The notes beneath the pieces were generated by a model. The model saw only the letters and a program-made list of their open reading frames with translations, was not told where the DNA came from and ran no database searches. DNA of 64,000 nt from Parabacteroides faecis (GTDB lineage Bacteria > Bacteroidota > Bacteroidia > Bacteroidales > Tannerellaceae), in assembly GCF_014647375.1 (NCBI RefSeq), contig NZ_BMPB01000002.1:124001-188000 (forward strand). Reading direction: 5' to 3'. A program made the position numbers and the translations under genes. Of this stretch, positions 627 to 56,055 are shown in pieces (the first letter of the stretch is position 1; every line of letters starts with the position of its first letter).

Positions 627-1454
627 ATGTCAAAAGGATATGCAGTTGTATTGGGATTGAACCATGTAGATCCCGTTCATTACGATGGTTGGGACGGAGC
701 GTTGGCTCAACCGGAAAATGATGCCAGGGCAATTTATGAGATTGCATCGAAACAAGGTTTTAAATCGAAAATCATTTTAGGAAATAAAGTTACTCGTCTC
801 AATGTAATTTATTCGGTAAGGGAGGCCGCCCAGGAGTTGGAAAGCGGTGACATCTTTTTCTTCTATTATTCGGGACATGGGGGGCAGTTGCCGGATATGG
901 ATGGGGATGAAGAGGATGGTATGGACGAAACCTGGTGTTTGTATGACGGTGAACTTGTCGATGATGAATTGCGTTTGCTGTGGTCTGAATTTAAAGAAGG
1001 AGTTCGTATCCTGGTTTTATCGGATAGTTGCCATAGCGGAACAATAACAAAAGCATCTGTGGAAGAACCAGCTCTTGAAAATTGTGTAAAGAAGGCAATG
1101 CCGATGGAGTATGTGAGAAAGACTTATTTTAAGAATAAGAGTTTTTATGATAACCTGGCTCGCGAACTTATGGATAAAGGTGCAAATGAGAAAGAGGTGA
1201 AAGCCGGCGTGTTACTTATTTCCGGCTGTCAGGACGAACAATCGTCGTATGCTTTCACATTTGATGAAAACAGTGCGTTCACTACTGCTTTATTGCAGGT
1301 TCTGGAGGAAGATCCTACGATTCATTATTCGCTGCTTCACGAAAAACTTGTGGATAAATTGGATAAGCGGTTACACGGCAAACAAAAACCTAATTTATAC
1401 CCGACAGAGCAATGTGATCTTGCTTTCCTGGAACAGAACTTTCTGGCAATATAA
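627..1454 (+). CDS. Caspase-like cysteine protease (peptidase C14, metacaspase type)
   Basis: This 275-residue protein has the metacaspase p20 fold. The catalytic His84 sits in 'YYSGHGGQ' and the catalytic Cys135 in 'SDSCHSGT'. An acidic stretch between them (about residues 90-101, rich in Asp and Glu) is where calcium-dependent metacaspases bind Ca2+ and where the specificity pocket begins. There is no signal peptide or membrane segment, so it should act in the cytoplasm. Family members usually cleave after Arg or Lys, not Asp; that is family knowledge, not visible here. The gene for a class 3 lipase begins 5 bp after the stop, so the two are almost surely co-transcribed. The lipase is therefore a candidate substrate or partner (inference). 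Confidence 0.88.
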   Translation: MSKGYAVVLGLNHVDPVHYDGWDGALAQPENDARAIYEIASKQGFKSKIILGNKVTRLNVIYSVREAAQELESGDIFFFYYSGHGGQLPDMDGDEEDGMDETWCLYDGELVDDELRLLWSEFKEGVRILVLSDSCHSGTITKASVEEPALENCVKKAMPMEYVRKTYFKNKSFYDNLARELMDKGANEKEVKAGVLLISGCQDEQSSYAFTFDENSAFTTALLQVLEEDPTIHYSLLHEKLVDKLDKRLHGKQKPNLYPTEQCDLAFLEQNFLAI

Positions 1455-1459
1455 TATAG

Positions 1460-2605
1460 ATGGAAAAGCTGCAACAAACAAAAGATATTTTCCTTTCCCT
1501 GGATGGTAAACTGGATCAGCTTGCCGTTACAAGCAAATCTGATCCGGCCTATCGGACAGAACGGGAGGAAATACAAATGGAAATGAAAGCTCTCTACGAA
1601 ACATTGTCGGAAGAGAAGCTGGATGTGGAAGTTGGGGCAGAGGATAACGGCATTGTACAGGATAAAGGCCTATTGGGCTTTTTGACGGGTACGGTCGACC
1701 TGATGAAGAACCTGCTCCTTGTTGTCAAGGTGTCGATGCACCGAGAATCGGATGCAGACCGGGTATTATTGGCTCTGGAAAAGAAAGGTCTGGAACTGTT
1801 GCCCGGATATGGCAGTTTGTATAAGAAAGCGTTGGAAATATTAAAGCAGTTTGTGCAATCAGATGTAGCTTCTATCGTAATGAACTTGCGTAAGGGGTCT
1901 TCCTACGTTAAGACGTTTGCTTCCTATATTCCTTCGCAACCGTTCTGTCCTCCGGAAGAGGCTCTTTTAATGGCTGAATGTTCGGAATATGCTTATACCG
2001 GATACACATTTAATAAGAAAGTTTCTCCATTGAAAAGGAGGGAGCTACCTGAATGTCTTAAAATGGGACACTATGATGAAGTGACCGGTCAGTTGTATGT
2101 GATGAACGGGTTTAAGGTTTGGTTGGGTAGATATGAAGACCGGATCGTTATTGCTTTTGCCGGAACGGAACTGTCGAAGATTGGAGCCGTACTAACAGAT
2201 GTACATCAGTTGCTCGCTGCCGATACTATGTATTTGTATGCAGTCGGGTTGGTTCGTTTATTTCTGGAAACTTATCCGGAGCAATGTTTTTATGTAACGG
2301 GACATTCGTTAGGAGGAGGGCTGACGCAGTTTGCTGTAGCTACTAATATCGCGCTGGCTCATGAATGGATGAAAGGTATTGGTTTCAATGCTGCCGGCTT
2401 ATCGGCTTCCACACTCTCACCGTTGGATGACAGAAACTTGCAATTGGCGATGGATAGTGTTGTCCATTATGCCACCATAAAAGATCCTGTCTCTGTTTTT
2501 GGTGCGGCTGTCGGTCTGCGGCAACTTTTGCCTAAAGGTAAAAGCAATGGTCATTCTTTGGATGATGTGAAGGATTGTCTGCAGCTTTTGGCTACTAAAA
2601 AATAA
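1460..2605 (+). CDS. Class 3 lipase-family alpha/beta hydrolase
   Basis: A 381-residue protein whose C-terminal half (about 165-380) is a lipase_3 domain. The nucleophile elbow 'GHSLGGG' places the catalytic Ser at 283. Asp342 ('KDPVSVFG') and His365 ('GHSLDD') fit the rest of the triad. The N-terminal 160 residues are unlike ordinary lipases: a charged, probably coiled segment (1-65) is followed by an amphipathic or hydrophobic stretch (about 70-92) that could touch a membrane. No signal peptide is present, which is odd for a nutritional lipase and points to an intracellular lipid target. It lies 5 bp downstream of the caspase-like gene. A protease-controlled phospholipase is possible, but the sequence alone does not prove it. 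Confidence 0.82.
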   Translation: MEKLQQTKDIFLSLDGKLDQLAVTSKSDPAYRTEREEIQMEMKALYETLSEEKLDVEVGAEDNGIVQDKGLLGFLTGTVDLMKNLLLVVKVSMHRESDADRVLLALEKKGLELLPGYGSLYKKALEILKQFVQSDVASIVMNLRKGSSYVKTFASYIPSQPFCPPEEALLMAECSEYAYTGYTFNKKVSPLKRRELPECLKMGHYDEVTGQLYVMNGFKVWLGRYEDRIVIAFAGTELSKIGAVLTDVHQLLAADTMYLYAVGLVRLFLETYPEQCFYVTGHSLGGGLTQFAVATNIALAHEWMKGIGFNAAGLSASTLSPLDDRNLQLAMDSVVHYATIKDPVSVFGAAVGLRQLLPKGKSNGHSLDDVKDCLQLLATKK

Positions 2606-2700: not shown

Positions 2701-3246
2701 TTATGCGATATCGATCAACTTGTGTGTTTGCAGACTAAGTTGCCACTCCGGGTGTTCCAGGATGTAATTGACAATTTCCATCGTATTCCGGCAGGAACAG
2801 GGTTGGAGGAAATGATGTTTGGCTGGCAACTGGATGTAAGAAGACAGATCCTGTCTCAGATAAACCACCTTGACTTCATCCATATGATCGATCTTGATGG
2901 GTGCTCCCTCTTTCGGAGAACAAGTCACCCAGTCGATACCTTTAGGTAACGGACGTGTGCCGTTTGTCTCTATACATATATATTTACCCGCTTTGTGAAG
3001 CATGTCGATAAATGCGTCGTCGATCCATAAAGCCGGTTCACCACCGGTCAGTATGATCATGTCTGAAGGGTAGGCGGAGATTGCCTCCAATATTTCTTCA
3101 TCCGACATCAAAGTCCCTTCTTCATGTTCCGTATCGCAAAATGAACATTTCAGGTTGCACCCTGAAAAACGGATGAAAACAGCGGCTTTGCCGGTATGAT
3201 AGCCTTCCCCTTGCAGGCTGTAAAAAATTTGATTAATCTTTCTCAT
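2701..3246 (-). CDS. queE: 7-carboxy-7-deazaguanine synthase QueE (radical SAM)
   Basis: QueE converts 6-carboxy-tetrahydropterin to 7-carboxy-7-deazaguanine on the route to queuosine. The radical SAM cluster motif CX3CX2C is present as Cys30, Cys34 and Cys37 ('SGCNLKCSFCDTE'). The SAM-binding 'TGGEPAL' follows near residue 67. At 181 residues it is a short member of the family but keeps the core. Its start overlaps the end of queD by 14 bp, so the two are translated from one mRNA with queD first. The gene converges with the lipase gene, leaving 95 bp between them in which I see no clean terminator. Confidence 0.93.
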   Translation of the reverse strand: MRKINQIFYSLQGEGYHTGKAAVFIRFSGCNLKCSFCDTEHEEGTLMSDEEILEAISAYPSDMIILTGGEPALWIDDAFIDMLHKAGKYICIETNGTRPLPKGIDWVTCSPKEGAPIKIDHMDEVKVVYLRQDLSSYIQLPAKHHFLQPCSCRNTMEIVNYILEHPEWQLSLQTHKLIDIA

Positions 3247-3565
3247 AGATTACAGTGTTCGATTCTGACTCTTTAATTTCTACTTTATAACAATTGGGTA
3301 ACTGGTCGCATATCCATCGGGCCATATTCTCGGCCGTCGGATTGAAAGGCAGGACTTCATTCAGATTCTGATGGTCCAGCCTGTTTTTTATCGATTCTTT
3401 GATATGGCTAAAGTCGATTACCATGCCATCGGCGTTCAATTCTTTCGAGCGACAGTAAACAGTGATGATCCAGTTGTGACCATGCAGGTTCTCACATTTA
3501 CTGGAATAAGAGAGTTTCAGACTGTGTGCAGCCGATATCTCCATTCTTTTAATTACGGTATACAT
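3233..3565 (-). CDS. queD: 6-carboxy-5,6,7,8-tetrahydropterin synthase QueD
   Basis: QueD converts dihydroneopterin triphosphate to 6-carboxy-tetrahydropterin, the step before QueE. The zinc ligands are visible as His14 ('SAAHSL') and His28/His30 ('LHGHNW'), with the catalytic Cys24 between them. The length of 110 residues is normal for this short form. It is the first gene of the queDE pair and has a Bacteroidetes-type promoter upstream (3627-3634). queC and queF are not in the window. Confidence 0.93.
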   Translation of the reverse strand: MYTVIKRMEISAAHSLKLSYSSKCENLHGHNWIITVYCRSKELNADGMVIDFSHIKESIKNRLDHQNLNEVLPFNPTAENMARWICDQLPNCYKVEIKESESNTVIYEKD

Positions 3566-3626
3566 GCTAAATTGTGCAATTTAAGACGTTTATATATTGT
3601 ATCTAAATGTCACCTCGATACGGCGA

Positions 3627-3634
3627 CAAAAATA
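3627..3634 (-). promoter_or_regulatory. Promoter -7 box for queDE
   Basis: Read on the minus strand this is TATTTTTG, a full match to the Bacteroidetes -7 consensus TAnnTTTG, 62 bp before the queD start codon. A TTTA at 3656-3653 lies near the expected -33 position. Confidence 0.6.
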
Positions 3635-3693
3635 CATAAAATCCCGGTGAGGTAAACTATACACTGTTATAGGATTTATTAAAAAAACATTTA

Positions 3694-3701
3694 TATTTTT
3701 G
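3694..3701 (+). promoter_or_regulatory. Promoter -7 box for candidate non-coding RNA
   Basis: TATTTTTG matches TAnnTTTG exactly and points away from queD into a stretch with no open reading frame but strong RNA folding potential. I do not see a good -33 element. Confidence 0.5.
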
Positions 3702-3707
3702 CATGTG

Positions 3708-3860
3708 TTAGAAAGTTGAATTTTTTAGTTTAGGAATGCTAAAATGGGTATACGGCAATAATAGGCAAAATATGTGCCTGATTACTGCTTGTGAATCAAT
3801 GGGGAACGGATTTATCCCCTGGATAAACCGATAATTGGAGGCTAAGATTCAATTGTTAAA
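3708..3860 (+). ncRNA. Candidate structured non-coding RNA
   Basis: No gene covers 3566-4061. Within it, an outer stem TTGAAT (3716-3721) / ATTCAA (3847-3852), extended by TTAG (3725-3728) / CTAA (3842-3845), encloses two hairpins. Hairpin A (3755-3788) pairs GCA, TAAT and AGGCA with TGCCT, ATTA and TGC. Hairpin B (3807-3830) pairs CGG and TTTATCC with GGATAAA and CCG around a CCT loop, and is flanked by CAAT/ATTG. A -7 promoter box lies just upstream at 3694. The family is not recognised; 6S-like RNA or a Bacteroidales-specific RNA motif are possibilities. The 3' end is uncertain: it may stop near 3860 or run to the terminator at 4018-4050. Confidence 0.45.
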
Positions 3861-3949
3861 AAATAGAAGAAGCTGCAAATAAGTTTCGATAATCTTAAAA
3901 ATGTGTTTTATAATATCTTTTTTTATTTGTTCAGTAATATAAAATGCCA

Positions 3950-4050
3950 CATCTTTGCATGCAGATAACCTAAACAATCTTTTTGCCTTAAAGACTAATA
4001 CCTATTAAAAACCTATAAAGAGGGCCTTTGAGAAAAGGCCCTCTTTATGA
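3950..4050 (+). ncRNA. Possible short transcript ending in a strong terminator
   Basis: CATCTTTG (3950-3957) is close to the -7 consensus, and a TTTG lies 24 bp upstream (3926-3929), the correct spacing. A strong terminator hairpin ends at 4050. No reading frame of note lies between. This could be a separate RNA of about 85 nt or the 3' part of the RNA that starts near 3705. Confidence 0.25.
4018..4050. terminator. Bidirectional-looking terminator hairpin
   Basis: AAAGAGGGCCTTT and AAAGGCCCTCTTT form a near-perfect stem with a GAGA loop. It serves the minus-strand STN gene that ends at 4062 and any plus-strand RNA arriving from 3.7-3.95 kb. Confidence 0.75.
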
Positions 4051-4061
4051 TTTTTAACCAC

Positions 4062-5636
4062 TTAGTAGCCTGTTTCTTCTATTTTTGACGAAATTTTTCC
4101 TATTGCTTCATTTAGTTTTTCCTCCGGTGGAATCACATTGAAGTTACCCCAGAAGCTTTCATCATAATTAAATTTTGTTTCAGAGAACACTGTCCGGGTT
4201 GATAATGTTTCTTTCCTGCCGAAACGGCTGACATTGTCCGTGTCTGTTTTGCACACGACCATTTCGAACCATACATGAAGGGGAGAGCTACCGAACAGTT
4301 GTTTTTTCTTTTTAACCTTAAAATGAAGGTCTCCTCTGACATGACTGACATAATAGATGCCGTTCCAGGGTTTGTAAGAAACCGTATAGACCACCTTTTG
4401 AGGGATTATCTTCAGGTTACGGCTTTTCTTCTCCACCAGCATATTTGCCGCATCCTTTACATATTTGGGGTGTATTTCAAACTCGGCCCGCAGCAGTGCA
4501 CTGTTTTCCGAATCGATGTACAAGTTGCCTTTTAAAAGCGGGCTTGTGATGAACTCGCGTTGTTCAAACGAGATCACATTTGCCATCCGGTTGTCTATTA
4601 CCGTGATATCGGAATGGGCATATACATAAGGATAGTTCACCTCGCTTTCCGGAACCAGAAAATCCGGCACATCCTTGATGATATCCAGCTGCATGCTGGC
4701 ATTGATACCGGATTTCATCTTGGCAATGATCGTATCCCGCTCCTGGTTATTACTGATCCGGCGCATCTTCAGCAGTTTTACCTGATCCGGAACAGTATGC
4801 CTGGTATAGGGGCTTTTATATATTTTAAAGATCGCCTCCGTCAGACTGACGAATTTGTTTTTCCGTTCAATCCCTTCCCGGTAGAAAGTGGTTTGATAGA
4901 CAGGCTCCTGGGAATAATTGATACTTTTCTTTTCTTCCATCTCTCGTAGCAGGCGTAAGGGGTTCACGATACGGACAACCACTTCCTGTATGGGGATTAC
5001 TTTCGGTTCCAGGGTTAGCATGCTGTAACGTTCCGCCAACAGAGAGCTCTCTATCTGATAGGGTTGGTAGCCGACATGTGAGAAGTTGATCTGCGATTGG
5101 CGCAGCGTATCCGGCAGACGCAACCTGAATTCGCCGCCCTGGTTTGTGACATTTCCTATGGAACCGTCGTCATTGACACTGACGGTGGCGAACGGGATAG
5201 GTTCATTCGTGTATTTATCTCGCAGGATACCTTCCAGGGTGAAATAGGTTACGGTATCCGGAAGAATCGGGAGTACCTCTTTGACCGGTGTTTCTTCAAC
5301 CGGACGGGAGATCAGGATATGGTTACCGATCACGCGAAGAGCCAGGTTTCGGTCGCCGGTGATCCGATAGATCGCTTCCCGGACAGAGTATTTGCCACCC
5401 GATATTTTTACTACTTGTTCATTGTCGATGATCTTACTGTCGTAGATGAACAGATAGCCGGACTGTTCGGATACTTTTCCCAGTAAATCGTAAACGGTTT
5501 CCTTACTTTTAGATATATGGATAAGACGTTCGAGTACATTTTTATTGTCCTTATCGTCAGCCCGCAAAGGGATAGCCGTCATCAGCAGCAATCCGATGAG
5601 GCAAAAAAACAGACGATATGTAACGGTTCGTTTCAC
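4062..5636 (-). CDS. Secreted STN + CarboxypepD_reg-like protein
   Basis: A 524-residue exported protein. Residues 1-26 are a signal peptide. Residues 37-112 are a secretin/TonB short N-terminal (STN) domain, the part that in TonB receptors talks to a FecR-type anti-sigma factor. Residues 132-222 are a CarboxypepD_reg-like beta sandwich ('LEGILRDKYTNEPIPFATVSV', ending 'IQEVVVRI'). The remaining 300 residues are not a TonB barrel. They match the C-terminal half of the protein encoded at 7128-8405, sharing 'FYRE', 'IYK(S/T)PY', 'LYID', 'RAEF' and a final 'FWG.(F/Y)NVI.P.E' block. It is the last gene after the sigma factor and FecR, 20 bp beyond the FecR stop. It probably works in the periplasm or outer membrane as a signalling partner of that FecR (inference). 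Confidence 0.75.
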   Translation of the reverse strand: MKRTVTYRLFFCLIGLLLMTAIPLRADDKDNKNVLERLIHISKSKETVYDLLGKVSEQSGYLFIYDSKIIDNEQVVKISGGKYSVREAIYRITGDRNLALRVIGNHILISRPVEETPVKEVLPILPDTVTYFTLEGILRDKYTNEPIPFATVSVNDDGSIGNVTNQGGEFRLRLPDTLRQSQINFSHVGYQPYQIESSLLAERYSMLTLEPKVIPIQEVVVRIVNPLRLLREMEEKKSINYSQEPVYQTTFYREGIERKNKFVSLTEAIFKIYKSPYTRHTVPDQVKLLKMRRISNNQERDTIIAKMKSGINASMQLDIIKDVPDFLVPESEVNYPYVYAHSDITVIDNRMANVISFEQREFITSPLLKGNLYIDSENSALLRAEFEIHPKYVKDAANMLVEKKSRNLKIIPQKVVYTVSYKPWNGIYYVSHVRGDLHFKVKKKKQLFGSSPLHVWFEMVVCKTDTDNVSRFGRKETLSTRTVFSETKFNYDESFWGNFNVIPPEEKLNEAIGKISSKIEETGY

Positions 5637-5656
5637 CTTGTACTCCTTTTATCCGA

Positions 5657-6526
5657 TTAGTTTTCATGCAAAGTAATCACATTATTTTCGCGTGTGCATT
5701 TCAGGTCGAGCGCAAAACAGATCAGTTCAGCCATTGTTTCCGGCGAGTTGTCGGCAAAGGTAACGGTAAGTGTCCTGCTCTCCAGCTCCGGGGTGGTTTT
5801 CAGACTGATATCTTCCGCGTTGAGATTGATGACCCGGAGGATATCGGCCAGTCGTTCATCCTTAAAACGTATCTGCCGGACATATTCTTCGAACTGTCCG
5901 GTGTCTTTTGTTTGCCTCACTTGTAGTTTTCGTGAAGAGAGGGTGACGGTTTCACCCGCTTTTACATGCACATCCTGTCCGCTTTTTTTCAACGTCACTT
6001 TCACCAATCCTCTTTGTACGGACAATTCAAAAGGCTGGGAACCGTCGCTTTTTACATTAAAAGCGGTACCCAAAACTTCGATGCGTGCATCTTCTGTTTC
6101 AATAAGGAACGGACGCTTGCGGTTGCCGGCAATATCGAAAAGAGCATTTCCCTGTAAGGATATTTCCCTTTTGTCCGGTTGGAAATGTTCCGGATAATGG
6201 ATAGCGGCATTGCCTGCCAGGTACACGATCGAACCATCTTCGAGCGTGGTGGCGAGTGTTGTCGTTTCCATATTCTGCCGGGTAAGCAGGTTACGGTCAG
6301 CATCTTTTTCTGTTCGATTAAAATGAATAATCAGGAAAAAGGATATGATTGCAGCTACCTGCAAACCTAATAATACAATTTTTCGGGTAGTTAGACGGGG
6401 GATGTCCCCATAAGGAATCACACCCTCTTTTTCTTTACAGGTGATCAGGTCCTCCTTTTCCAGGCGTTGGTACACCTTGTCCCATGCCTGATCCGTTCTT
6501 CTATTGTCCCTTTCTTTACGAGTCAT
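5657..6526 (-). CDS. FecR-family anti-sigma factor
   Basis: A 289-residue inner-membrane regulator. A cytoplasmic N-terminal part (1-48) that would bind the sigma factor is followed by one membrane helix (49-69), a periplasmic FecR domain (about 85-190, 'LEDGSIVYLAGNAAIHYPEHF' region) and a C-terminal DUF4974-type STN-like domain (about 215-285). Its ATG overlaps the sigma factor stop by 4 bp (6523-6526), indicating translational coupling. In the well-known FecIR system such proteins hold the sigma factor until an outer-membrane receptor signals; here no receptor with a barrel is encoded nearby. Confidence 0.92.
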   Translation of the reverse strand: MTRKERDNRRTDQAWDKVYQRLEKEDLITCKEKEGVIPYGDIPRLTTRKIVLLGLQVAAIISFFLIIHFNRTEKDADRNLLTRQNMETTTLATTLEDGSIVYLAGNAAIHYPEHFQPDKREISLQGNALFDIAGNRKRPFLIETEDARIEVLGTAFNVKSDGSQPFELSVQRGLVKVTLKKSGQDVHVKAGETVTLSSRKLQVRQTKDTGQFEEYVRQIRFKDERLADILRVINLNAEDISLKTTPELESRTLTVTFADNSPETMAELICFALDLKCTRENNVITLHEN

Positions 6527-7074
6527 ACTGTTTGTGTATAATTCTCAATTTCTTTTCTGAGTGTTTGAAGTGCCTTGGTCATTTCAGCTTCCACTGTTTT
6601 GACGGACAGAGAGAGGGCGGAGGCTATCTCCGCGTATTTCTTTCCTTCGAAACGCTGCATCCGGAAGATGCGTAAGCGGCGTTCGGGTAGCTTTTTGAGA
6701 GTCTTGTTTATCAGATCCTCCAATTCTTTGTATTCCAGCTGGTCCTGCGGATCGGAAGGCTTGCTTTCCTGGTTACCCGATAAAACGTTTTCCCGGTAAC
6801 GGTTGCGTACTTCCTGATGTTCGCAGTATTGAAGAGACTGGTTGCGTACCGCCCCGTACAGATAACTTTTCAGGGAGAGGAACACTTGCAGTTTTTCTTT
6901 TTCTTTCCAGAATACGTAGAATAGCTCTTGCACGATCTCTTCAGCTACGTCCCAGTTTCCGGTAATACCGGCGGCATAGAGGCAAAGGGGGGAGTAGTAG
7001 AGCCGGAAGATACCTTCGAAAGCTTTGACGTCCCCCTCTTTAATCTTAGTTAGTACGAATAAATCGTTCAGCAT
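6523..7074 (-). CDS. ECF RNA polymerase sigma factor (FecI-like, Bacteroides expansion family)
   Basis: A 183-residue sigma-70 family protein with only regions 2 and 4. Region 2 covers about residues 10-75 ('AFEGIFRLYYSPLCLYA', 'DVAEEIVQELFYVFW') and binds core polymerase and the -10 element. Region 4 covers about 120-175 ('LPERRLRIFRMQRFEGKKYAEIA' ending in a helix-turn-helix). It is translationally coupled to the FecR gene behind it. A perfect -7 box (7103-7110) lies 29 bp upstream of the start codon, so the sigma-FecR-STN genes can be transcribed apart from the CarboxypepD gene upstream. Confidence 0.93.
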   Translation of the reverse strand: MLNDLFVLTKIKEGDVKAFEGIFRLYYSPLCLYAAGITGNWDVAEEIVQELFYVFWKEKEKLQVFLSLKSYLYGAVRNQSLQYCEHQEVRNRYRENVLSGNQESKPSDPQDQLEYKELEDLINKTLKKLPERRLRIFRMQRFEGKKYAEIASALSLSVKTVEAEMTKALQTLRKEIENYTQTV

Positions 7075-7102
7075 GCCGTGGATCTTAATGATTAGAGTCC
7101 TT

Positions 7103-7110
7103 CAAATGTA
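7103..7110 (-). promoter_or_regulatory. Promoter -7 box of the sigma/FecR operon
   Basis: Minus-strand TACATTTG fits TAnnTTTG exactly. It lies in the 53-bp gap between the upstream CarboxypepD gene and the sigma factor gene. Confidence 0.5.
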
Positions 7111-7127
7111 CGAAAAGATATTGAAAT

Positions 7128-8405
7128 TTATTTCTGTTGCTTTTTTAATTTGTTTACCGCACTTTCCAGTGATTCCGTCGGTTCGATGATATTGTAGGCT
7201 CCCCAGAAATCTTCGTCCATGAAGTTCTCTACTTTATCGGACAACGATTGTGATTCTTTGAATGCCATCTTATACGGAATAGTGGTCACGTTTTCTTCTC
7301 GTCCGTCCGTTACCACCGTTTCGGAGATAATGGTGTAATTGGTCGAGAACAGTTTGCGTTTCCAGTCACATTTAAAACGTACCCCGTTGCGGATATAGTT
7401 CAGATAAGTTACGCCGTCACGGTCTTTATAATTGACCAGATAAGCTACTTCGAGCGGACGGAAACGTAATCCGAACGGTTTCTTTTTGAGGATGGCCTGG
7501 GTCGCTTTGTTGCGGTCGTCCATACTCAGATTGAATTCGGCACGGGTGAATGAGAGGCGTTCCTTGTCTATGTACAGTTTTCCGTAATACAGGGCATAAG
7601 GCATGATGACCTGTGGCTTGAAACTGATTACATATTGAGGACGGTTGTCGATATTGGTCGATTCCTCCATTTTGAAGAGGTAATAGGGTAGGCATTCCTT
7701 GTCGAGCAATACATCCGGATTCTTCACTATATCACAGAAGATCGACATATTCGGACCGCCGAGCAGTTTGACGGCAAGCGTGTCGGTCCTTTTCTGGCTC
7801 AATAACTTACGGCCTTTGTAAACCTGTACGCGGTCGCGGTCGGATGCTTCGTTATAGGGTGTTTTATAGATGTCGATCACTGCTTCCGATATATTGATAT
7901 ACCGTTTGCCTTTTTGGGCTGTTTCCCGGTAGAAGCCGGTCAGCATATTTGTCTTCTTGCTGTAGTTGGCGGGAATTTTACTGACGGCTTGTTCTACCAG
8001 ATAGCGTGGTTCCTGGGCATGGATGATGATCTCGTCGAGCATATTCTCGTAAGGTGTCATCCAGACAGTCAGGTCGGAGAGGTTAATCCCGCTCACTTCT
8101 ACTTTATTATTGTAATATCCGATATGGGAGATCTCGACAGCCTTCACATGGGAAGCATCTTTGATCTTGAAAGAGAATTCCCCGTCTTCGTTGGTGATCG
8201 TACCCGAAGTACTGCCGGGGATGGAAATGTTTACATACTCCAGCCGTTTCTTATTATTTTTGTCCTTGACAACTCCGCTGATAGTGATGAAGTCCGGATT
8301 CTCGTCGTCACGCACCGGTTGATCCTGCGCCTGTAACGGACTAATACCTGCTACCAATAATAAGATCAGCAAAAATCCGATAGATTGTCTATACAGTGTT
8401 TTCAT
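7128..8405 (-). CDS. Secreted CarboxypepD_reg-like protein, paralogue of 4062-5636
   Basis: A 425-residue exported protein: signal peptide 1-26, a CarboxypepD_reg-like domain 41-128 ('ISGVVKDKNNKKRLEYVNISIPGS'), then about 300 residues of unknown fold. That C-terminal part is clearly paralogous to the one in the STN protein at 4062-5636 (shared 'FYRE', 'ISEAVIDIYKTPY', 'GKLYID', 'RAEF', and 'DFWGAYNIIEP'). It lacks the STN domain. Such proteins are common in Bacteroidales and often lie beside sigma/anti-sigma genes; the function is unknown. The gene is read towards the sigma operon with a 53-bp gap. Confidence 0.75.
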   Translation of the reverse strand: MKTLYRQSIGFLLILLLVAGISPLQAQDQPVRDDENPDFITISGVVKDKNNKKRLEYVNISIPGSTSGTITNEDGEFSFKIKDASHVKAVEISHIGYYNNKVEVSGINLSDLTVWMTPYENMLDEIIIHAQEPRYLVEQAVSKIPANYSKKTNMLTGFYRETAQKGKRYINISEAVIDIYKTPYNEASDRDRVQVYKGRKLLSQKRTDTLAVKLLGGPNMSIFCDIVKNPDVLLDKECLPYYLFKMEESTNIDNRPQYVISFKPQVIMPYALYYGKLYIDKERLSFTRAEFNLSMDDRNKATQAILKKKPFGLRFRPLEVAYLVNYKDRDGVTYLNYIRNGVRFKCDWKRKLFSTNYTIISETVVTDGREENVTTIPYKMAFKESQSLSDKVENFMDEDFWGAYNIIEPTESLESAVNKLKKQQK

Positions 8406-55803: not shown

Positions 55804-55811
55804 TACTTTTG
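55804..55811 (+). promoter_or_regulatory. Promoter -7 box of the B12 uptake operon
   Basis: TACTTTTG fits the consensus exactly and lies just before the riboswitch, so transcription begins at its 5' end. Confidence 0.6.
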
Positions 55812-55814
55812 CGC

Positions 55815-55990
55815 TCGAAGTCGGTTCTGTAAAACTCCTGTTCATGGAGACAGATTAAAAGGGAACCGGGTGAGAATCCCGGACAGTCCACGCTGCTGTG
55901 AAGCTTTATAAACATCCTGATAATACCTTTTGCCACTGGTCTTTGCGATCGGGAAGGCATTCGGGATGGAAGTAAGTCAGAAGACCTGCC
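55815..55990 (+). promoter_or_regulatory. Cobalamin (adenosylcobalamin-class) riboswitch
   Basis: The conserved blocks of the B12 aptamer are easy to see in order: GGGAACCGGGTGAGAATCCC, GGACAGTCCACGCTGCTGTG, the core GCCACTGG (55932-55939), GGGAAGGC, and GTAAGTCAGAAGACCTGCC at the end. A short hairpin GTCC/GGAC (56009-56026) lies between the aptamer and the btuF start and is the likely kissing-loop and ribosome-site switch. High cobalamin should lower expression of the uptake genes that follow. Confidence 0.95.
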
Positions 55991-56055
55991 ATTTTTTGCA
56001 TAACGATTGTCCTCGTGGGTTTGGACGGTTTGTGTCGGATAAAAACAAATAGAAT

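Follow-up and report, generated by a model that had tools for sequence, protein, structure and literature searches.

The intergenic region between queD and the neighbouring minus-strand gene in Parabacteroides faecis probably encodes a small RNA (sRNA) of ca. 88 nt that is transcribed from its own promoter (P2), is activated by Cur, acts in trans by base pairing, its best-supported target being the mRNA leader upstream of a tolC-like gene, and occurs in many Bacteroidales. The window analysed is the whole stretch of 64,000 nt (contig NZ_BMPB01000002.1, positions 124,001 to 188,000) out of a genome of 6.66 Mb; within it, the gap between the two genes measures 496 bases. The features are collected in Table 1, with positions counted from the first base of the window. 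Convergent with the sRNA, the minus strand at 4062-8405 holds clustered genes for an ECF sigma factor, for FecR and for two CarboxypepD_reg proteins (one of them with an STN match below cut-off), a set of the surface-signalling type. Elsewhere in the window we found a caspase-domain protein (PF00656) with, directly behind it, a gene that matches class 3 lipases below the cut-off (627-2605, plus strand), and a cobalamin riboswitch (55804-56007, plus strand, 104.4 bits). The upstream neighbours of the sRNA differ in most of the other members of the genus that were read; L020 also has queD.

Table 1. Features of the queD intergenic region and its flanking genes (positions in the window).
Feature	Position	Strand	Remarks
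queD, 6-pyruvoyl tetrahydropterin synthase family	3233..3565	-	PF01242
-7 box TATTTTTG of the divergent queD promoter	3627..3634	-	TAnnTTTG in 8/8 alignment rows
Distal -7 box TATTTTTG (P1, the promoter of the earlier note)	3694..3701	+	Perhaps start of a longer form
Folded stretch of the earlier note, read as spacer	3715..3853	+	Sequence unconserved, pairing at most weak
Dyad TGTGTTTTATAATATC	3902..3917	.	Agrees with the Cur/BT4338 consensus TATGTTnTAnAACATA at 11/14 specified positions
-33 box TTTG of P2	3926..3929	+	
-7 box CATCTTTG of P2	3950..3957	+	
sRNA, ca. 88 nt	3963..4050	+	Start placed at 3963-3965 by its distance from the -7 box, 3' end by the terminator
Pairing region ACCTAAACAATCTTTTTGCCTT	3968..3989	+	Complementary to the tolC-like leader, one G-U
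Second conserved box CTAATACCTATT	3995..4006	+	Genus and order alignments
Intrinsic terminator hairpin	4015..4048	+	10/10 modelled pairs with two-sided changes
Convergent gene with CarboxypepD_reg_2 domain and below-cut-off STN match	4062..5636	-	

An earlier note on this DNA had placed a folded non-coding RNA with its own promoter at 3694-3860. Several of its observations hold: the -7 box is exact and is the sole plus-strand TAnnTTTG in 3561-4060, all 34 pairs of the structure, rebuilt from the wording of the note, are standard in the source genome, and no open reading frame of at least 60 aa competes over 3694-3860. The term gene-free does not hold for the intergenic region as a whole, the other half of it holding the sRNA gene. 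The rebuilt structure consists of an outer stem (3715-3728 with 3842-3853), a three-part hairpin (3754-3789) and a 10-bp hairpin with a CCU loop (3807-3830), and has an energy of -25.6 kcal/mol vs. a minimum of -35.1. The fold of 3708-3860 reaches -35.0 kcal/mol against a shuffle mean of -28.5 (z -1.72, equalled by 10 of 200 shuffles); that of 3708-4052, in which the strong terminator is included, beats its shuffles (z -4.1, 0 of 100). In seven relatives with queD in the same position, 98 of the 231 cells of the rebuilt structure hold a standard pair (42%), and slid controls on the same alignment (partners shifted by 1-6 columns) give 31-58%. A second alignment, A1, with seven distinct rows and the 34 pairs of the source genome counted, yields 58.9% of 202 cells, a level reached by none of 500 shuffles (slid versions 34.7-53.8%). 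Its covariation score was reached by 6 and its count of two-sided changes by 14 of 500 shuffles, figures that can also arise when the rows are related and the structure has been derived from one of them. The spacers of two relatives fold at z -2.1 and -2.6.

Across eight genomes with a syntenic queD, 3718-3850 keeps its length and not its sequence. In a BLAST search of 60 genomes (own included) all 35 other genomes of the genus matched, some of them partly, with the matches falling in 3850-4070 and none in 3718-3849, apart from 38 bases at the distal promoter that matched in three close genomes. The note had offered 6S RNA as a candidate, and for this stretch we reject it: no 6S family (RF00013, RF01685) appeared at E 10 or better in 3400-4200 in the Rfam search, and the structure is unconserved in the clade, with the contrary counts on A1. 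Neither model matched elsewhere in the source genome at E 0.001; they find nothing genome-wide and are therefore insensitive here. Two 6S-Flavo matches below the cut-off were seen in other genomes (G048, G050). The note had also named lack of covariation and of conservation in the hairpins as grounds for giving it up, and this is largely what we found, some of the counts on A1 excepted. It is very improbable that 3708-3860 is itself a functional folded RNA, 6S-like or specific to the order, started from the box at 3694. The exact box, found at the same place in four of the eight syntenic loci, the real pairings, the A1 counts and the two folded spacers would fit such an RNA; they have to be set against a fold close to chance, pairs within the range of slid controls on the other alignment, the missing 6S match, the absence of any terminator found ahead of 4015, and a BLAST search in which the downstream block did match while the stretch, save for its promoter end, did not. 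We read most of the flagged stretch as ordinary spacer, and its promoter as possibly real. A weak or minor hairpin may exist in a few species, because the A1 counts exceed those of most shuffles.

The block that is conserved covers 3851-4057, with an onset of conservation at ca. 3851. Thirty loci of the genus Parabacteroides and 32 of the order align over AGATAACCTAAACAATCTTTTTGCCTT, CTAATACCTATT and the terminator, and across the order only the centre of AGATAACCTAAACAATCTTTTTGCCTT is invariant. In this form the idea of a non-coding RNA with its own promoter survives, as does that of an order-specific regulatory RNA, the other candidate of the note, since one is present in the intergenic region; the flagged hairpins are not part of it. 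They lie outside its conserved sequence, and the sRNA, starting ca. 110 nt past the last of them and ca. 260 nt past the chosen box, is missed by 3694-3860. The fold computed for the 88-nt RNA has an energy of -26.7 kcal/mol (z -5.7, reached by 0 of 200 shuffles), to which the terminator contributes most. A 5-bp hairpin predicted for the source genome occupies part of the 5' pairing region, which speaks against the proposed pairing; it is missing from the consensus. Its single ATG sits in its last bases. No second copy was found when the sRNA was compared by BLAST with its own genome. The terminator is symmetrical and may therefore also serve the convergent gene.

The known family that comes closest is BTnc060 (Rfam RF04184), which aligns to 3852-4048 with 72.3 bits (E 4e-11 in an 801-base search with a permissive threshold), against a gathering cut-off of 228.9 bits. 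The alignment runs along the whole model of 213 positions, and the core ACAAUCUUUUU(A/G)CCUUA, the box CUAAUACCUAUU and the terminator are in common; by core and terminator, the two are homologous. There are differences as well: the Rfam model also takes in the P2 promoter and the dyad and, unlike the Bacteroides-based BTnc060, our sRNA extends well beyond Bacteroides. The BTnc060 model run on 198 Bacteroidales genomes matches 28 of them at E 0.001 and none above the cut-off, and the comparison suggests that BTnc060 has been drawn too narrowly, with promoter DNA included. Judging from the alignments, we are dealing with a strongly conserved sRNA that is a divergent relative of BTnc060. A search among open-licence papers, as far as their searchable parts go, found none on this sRNA, nor any under the name "BTnc060."

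Our own covariance model (R1) detects the sRNA in 62 of 392 Bacteroidales genomes, representing 33 of 204 genera and 16 family labels, a count obtained with strict filters and including the genomes used for building R1. The source locus, which also helped to build the model, scores 104.9 bits. A draw across the phylum gave six matching genomes out of 392, all Bacteroidales, and a pattern scan of named genomes returned at least 120 stretches. The 80 matches listed include stretches from Bacteroides, Phocaeicola, Prevotella, Segatella, Hallella, Xylanibacter, Parabacteroides, Tannerella and Barnesiella. Some genomes carry two copies (G602, G783, G827 and, among the matches listed, one Prevotella MAG with L138 and L147, where one copy has a perfect Cur-type dyad, 14/14, and the other lacks it). 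Also among the matches listed, a contig labelled as a Roseburia MAG carries the Bacteroidales sRNA (L126), perhaps by an error of binning or labelling.

P2 has the boxes of a promoter of the sigma-ABfr type (3926-3957). Its conservation was read in two sets. The first comprises 51 loci, those out of 57 whose core fitted the search expression (dropped were L040, L051, L054, L057, L059 and L060, of which L040 and L054 visibly carry the sRNA); the second comprises the 80 loci among the matches listed minus L181, too close to a contig end, i.e., 79. The -7 TTTG stands ahead of the core in 50 of the 51 loci and in 79 of 79 among the matches listed, and the fuller [TC]AnnTTTG in 40 and 76, respectively. 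Around -33, TTTG, TTGG or CTTG is found in 46 of the 51 loci (73 of 79 among the matches listed), with a spacing of 28 nt to the -7 TTTG in 37 of those 46 (48 of those 73).

The box of the earlier note, P1, is a different case. A TAnnTTTG of this type stands at the matching place in four of eight syntenic loci (in L001-L004 at -279 from the sRNA core), no TTTG is found 28 nt upstream of its -7 box, and a distal TAnnTTTG is present in six of the 30 loci of the genus. Among the matches listed, eight of ten Bacteroides/Phocaeicola loci have a distal TAnnTTTG 135-182 nt before the core (e.g., L033, L128, L165), and in a by-eye comparison with L033 and L128 position 1 of the BTnc060 model comes just behind it; this is seemingly the start that Rfam's model uses. 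The model begins ca. 120 nt upstream of the P2 start, and therefore the annotated Bacteroides RNA may use the distal promoter. The box in L001-L004 may be the counterpart of this Bacteroides box, and P1 may be real and give rise to an extended version of the sRNA that lies downstream. Carried further, this would make the main RNA a long form of ca. 340 nt, from P1 (3694) to the terminator (4048), with the conserved part as a processed 3' domain and not a transcript started at P2. The 213 positions of the BTnc060 model, aligned to 3852-4048, suggest the same for Bacteroides, as do the distal boxes just mentioned. We consider this unlikely for the RNA described here, given that nearly all loci of the two sets (51, and 79 among the matches listed) retain the P2 boxes, even where the upstream sequence is unrelated, and that the distal box is limited to a minority of the loci of the genus. 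A short form from P2 together with a long form from P1 is plausible, and P2 could be a minor promoter in Bacteroides.

Ahead of P2, with its centre ca. 53 bp upstream of the inferred start of the sRNA, lies a dyad that resembles the consensus of Cur (BT4338), TATGTTnTAnAACATA, as proposed in PMC3878776 and quoted in PMC6989115. In all 51 loci the best 16-mer agrees at no fewer than 11 of the 14 specified positions, and in 46 of them its centre is at -62 to -64 from the core. Singly, each dyad is weak, its score being reached by 0 to 29 of 300 shuffles depending on the locus (22 of 300 in the source genome). Outside the genus (20 loci), the positions left unspecified in the consensus, two in number, are the freest of the inner ones, which matches it. 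Among the matches listed, at least 10/14 is attained by 10 of 10 Bacteroides/Phocaeicola loci, seven of seven Tannerellaceae loci, 10 of 14 other loci and 10 of 48 Prevotella-like loci, leaving 38 Prevotella-like and four other loci below the threshold; three matches at the threshold (L131, L151, L190) are not dyad-like. As background, 56 of 1464 sequence segments, taken wider, reach 10/14, and only six of the 1464 do so in the right place vs. 33 of the 79 loci among the matches listed. The source genome has three HTH_Crp_2 matches above the Pfam cut-off, each a candidate Cur. The dyad appears to fit the published consensus, and it is its conservation and fixed position that carry the case. 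Cur control looks widespread, although not general in Prevotella.

As for targets, positions 3968-3989 of the window match the complement of the leader of a tolC-like gene over 22 nt (BLAST against the own genome, E 0.0065). The gene encodes an outer-membrane efflux protein (PF02321), the match lies on the strand opposite to the gene, and the resulting duplex has 22 contiguous paired positions, one of them G-U. Relative to the start codon it spans -39 to -18, and a TAGTTTTG box precedes it. The genes that come next on the same strand carry the domains HlyD, ABC_tran and MacB_PCD/FtsX, and together they would make up a MacAB-TolC-like exporter. With -36.6 kcal/mol this duplex ranks first of 320 start regions (from ca. 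459 kb of the source genome), the runner-up having -22.7 and the mean being -11.8 (sd 3.8). Homologues of the tolC-like gene were found in 25 of 41 genomes searched, and 23 were read, with the start codons of some distant ones extrapolated. The site is kept in nine of ten homologues of at least 79% identity, own included; these nine keep AAGGTAAAAAGATT and further pairing, with duplexes of -29 to -38 kcal/mol that none of 100 shuffles reached in any of them. The tenth (G004) has the site deleted and a duplex of -19.2 (1 of 100 shuffles), and its contig ends inside the sRNA promoter. In four genomes (G021, G013, G014, G002) a one-base deletion coincides with an extended AGGTTR that is able to pair with UAACCU of the sRNA, which would fit selection for pairing. 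The 13 more distant homologues have no long site, although duplexes of -21 to -23 kcal/mol form in four (0 of 100 shuffles). Searched by itself, the 14-mer AGGYAAAAAGATTG has 30 matches in 17 genomes, of which 16 are in the sRNA, eight in the tolC leader and six elsewhere, vs. two matches for the reversed control; in two Bacteroides-like genomes it has no tolC match. There is, then, a complementarity, conserved among close relatives, to the start region of an mRNA encoded elsewhere, by which trans-acting base-pairing sRNAs are recognised.

It could still be that the sRNA acts mainly as a sponge or by binding a protein (e.g., RbpB or another protein with an RRM), and that the tolC match is the by-product of one lineage. 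In favour of such a role, the core is kept throughout the order while Parabacteroides alone yielded the tolC site (outside it, two Bacteroides-like genomes were scanned). However, the 22-nt complement sits in a short leader, persists in nine of the ten close orthologues and is the best of the 320; this argues for base pairing at least with the tolC leader, and we give the protein or sponge role a low probability.

Other candidate targets did not stand up equally well. A DUF3943 gene pairs at -31.1 kcal/mol here and at -22 to -25 in four of 19 other homologues read, the remaining 15 showing no notable pairing (22 places were found); the list of 320 regions lacks it, a longer opposite frame having probably taken its place. 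A DUF3943 gene adjoins the sRNA in one of the relatives (L017/L112, G008:C19:26759-28417). We rejected an antisense match of 17/17 nt (L066), on the wrong strand for its gene, three matches away from start codons (L069, L070, L072) and the six other AGGYAAAAAGATTG sites, none of them clearly within a 5'UTR. A TolB_like gene (L068/L286; -21.0, fourth of 320) and two lipoprotein-like genes of G019 were also set aside, the complement of CTAATACCTATT lying within early codons in all three, and these matches may be a coincidence of signal-peptide codons. One further site (L275, G007:C283:1899) has a long complementarity to the sRNA (-36.8 kcal/mol), but no start region could be clearly assigned to it; it might conceivably be a 3'UTR or act as a sponge.

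If control by Cur holds, the situation would resemble that of enterobacteria, in which Spot 42 and CyaR are sRNAs linked to CRP, i.e., an sRNA arm of a CRP-type regulator, a likeness that implies no homology. Within Bacteroides, MasB (BTnc201) is described as a narrowly conserved, Cur-activated sRNA of B. thetaiotaomicron with BT_1675 as target (PMC10994844). Ours would likewise be a small intergenic sRNA under Cur acting on the 5' region of an mRNA, with another identifier and another target; the two are set apart here by description, not by sequence, and the wide occurrence of an sRNA with a Cur site contrasts with the narrow conservation described for MasB. GibS and FopS, also of Bacteroides, are reported to have a conserved single-stranded 5' seed and to target the start regions of metabolic or envelope genes (PMC7366714, PMC11697453). 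A conserved 5' seed and the targeting of start regions would be shared with both, and the layout of a 5' stretch plus a terminator hairpin with FopS, which has 14 copies in B. thetaiotaomicron as described there, unlike the single copy of the source genome. By sequence, the best match to GibS (RF04182) has 24.1 bits against a cut-off of 115 and is on the opposite strand.

The mechanism that we propose is as follows. P2 would transcribe the sRNA from a start at 3963-3965, and Cur, the orthologue of BT4338 and a CRP-family starvation regulator active on carbon limitation, would bind the dyad and raise its level; we propose this activation for Parabacteroides, Bacteroides and several other groups. 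The near-invariant and mostly open 5' part would then pair with mRNA leaders, the tolC-like leader being the best-supported target, where pairing at -39 to -18 would cover the short leader and hinder the loading of ribosomes when carbon is exhausted. Repression is the likelier sign of regulation, because the published Bacteroides sRNAs GibS, FopS and MasB repress through 5' regions (PMC7366714, PMC11697453, PMC10994844). In work on Roc, three candidate sRNAs failed to raise it, and a Cur-dependent RNA-binding protein or sRNA is proposed (PMC10294740). The sRNA described here is a further candidate for such a Cur-dependent factor acting on the roc leader.

A broader reading, tentative and less secure than the sRNA itself, is that this sRNA, found deep across Bacteroidales, serves as the RNA arm of Cur's starvation regulon and has two promoters, a distal one used in rich medium and P2, under Cur, used on starvation. 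It might shut down the MacAB-TolC-like exporter of Parabacteroides on exhaustion of sugars and be a candidate for the roc leader in Bacteroides. To our knowledge, few sRNAs of Bacteroidota have known targets. If the proposal is true, an RNA would link carbon starvation to export through the envelope, and predictions at the level of single nucleotides follow from it.
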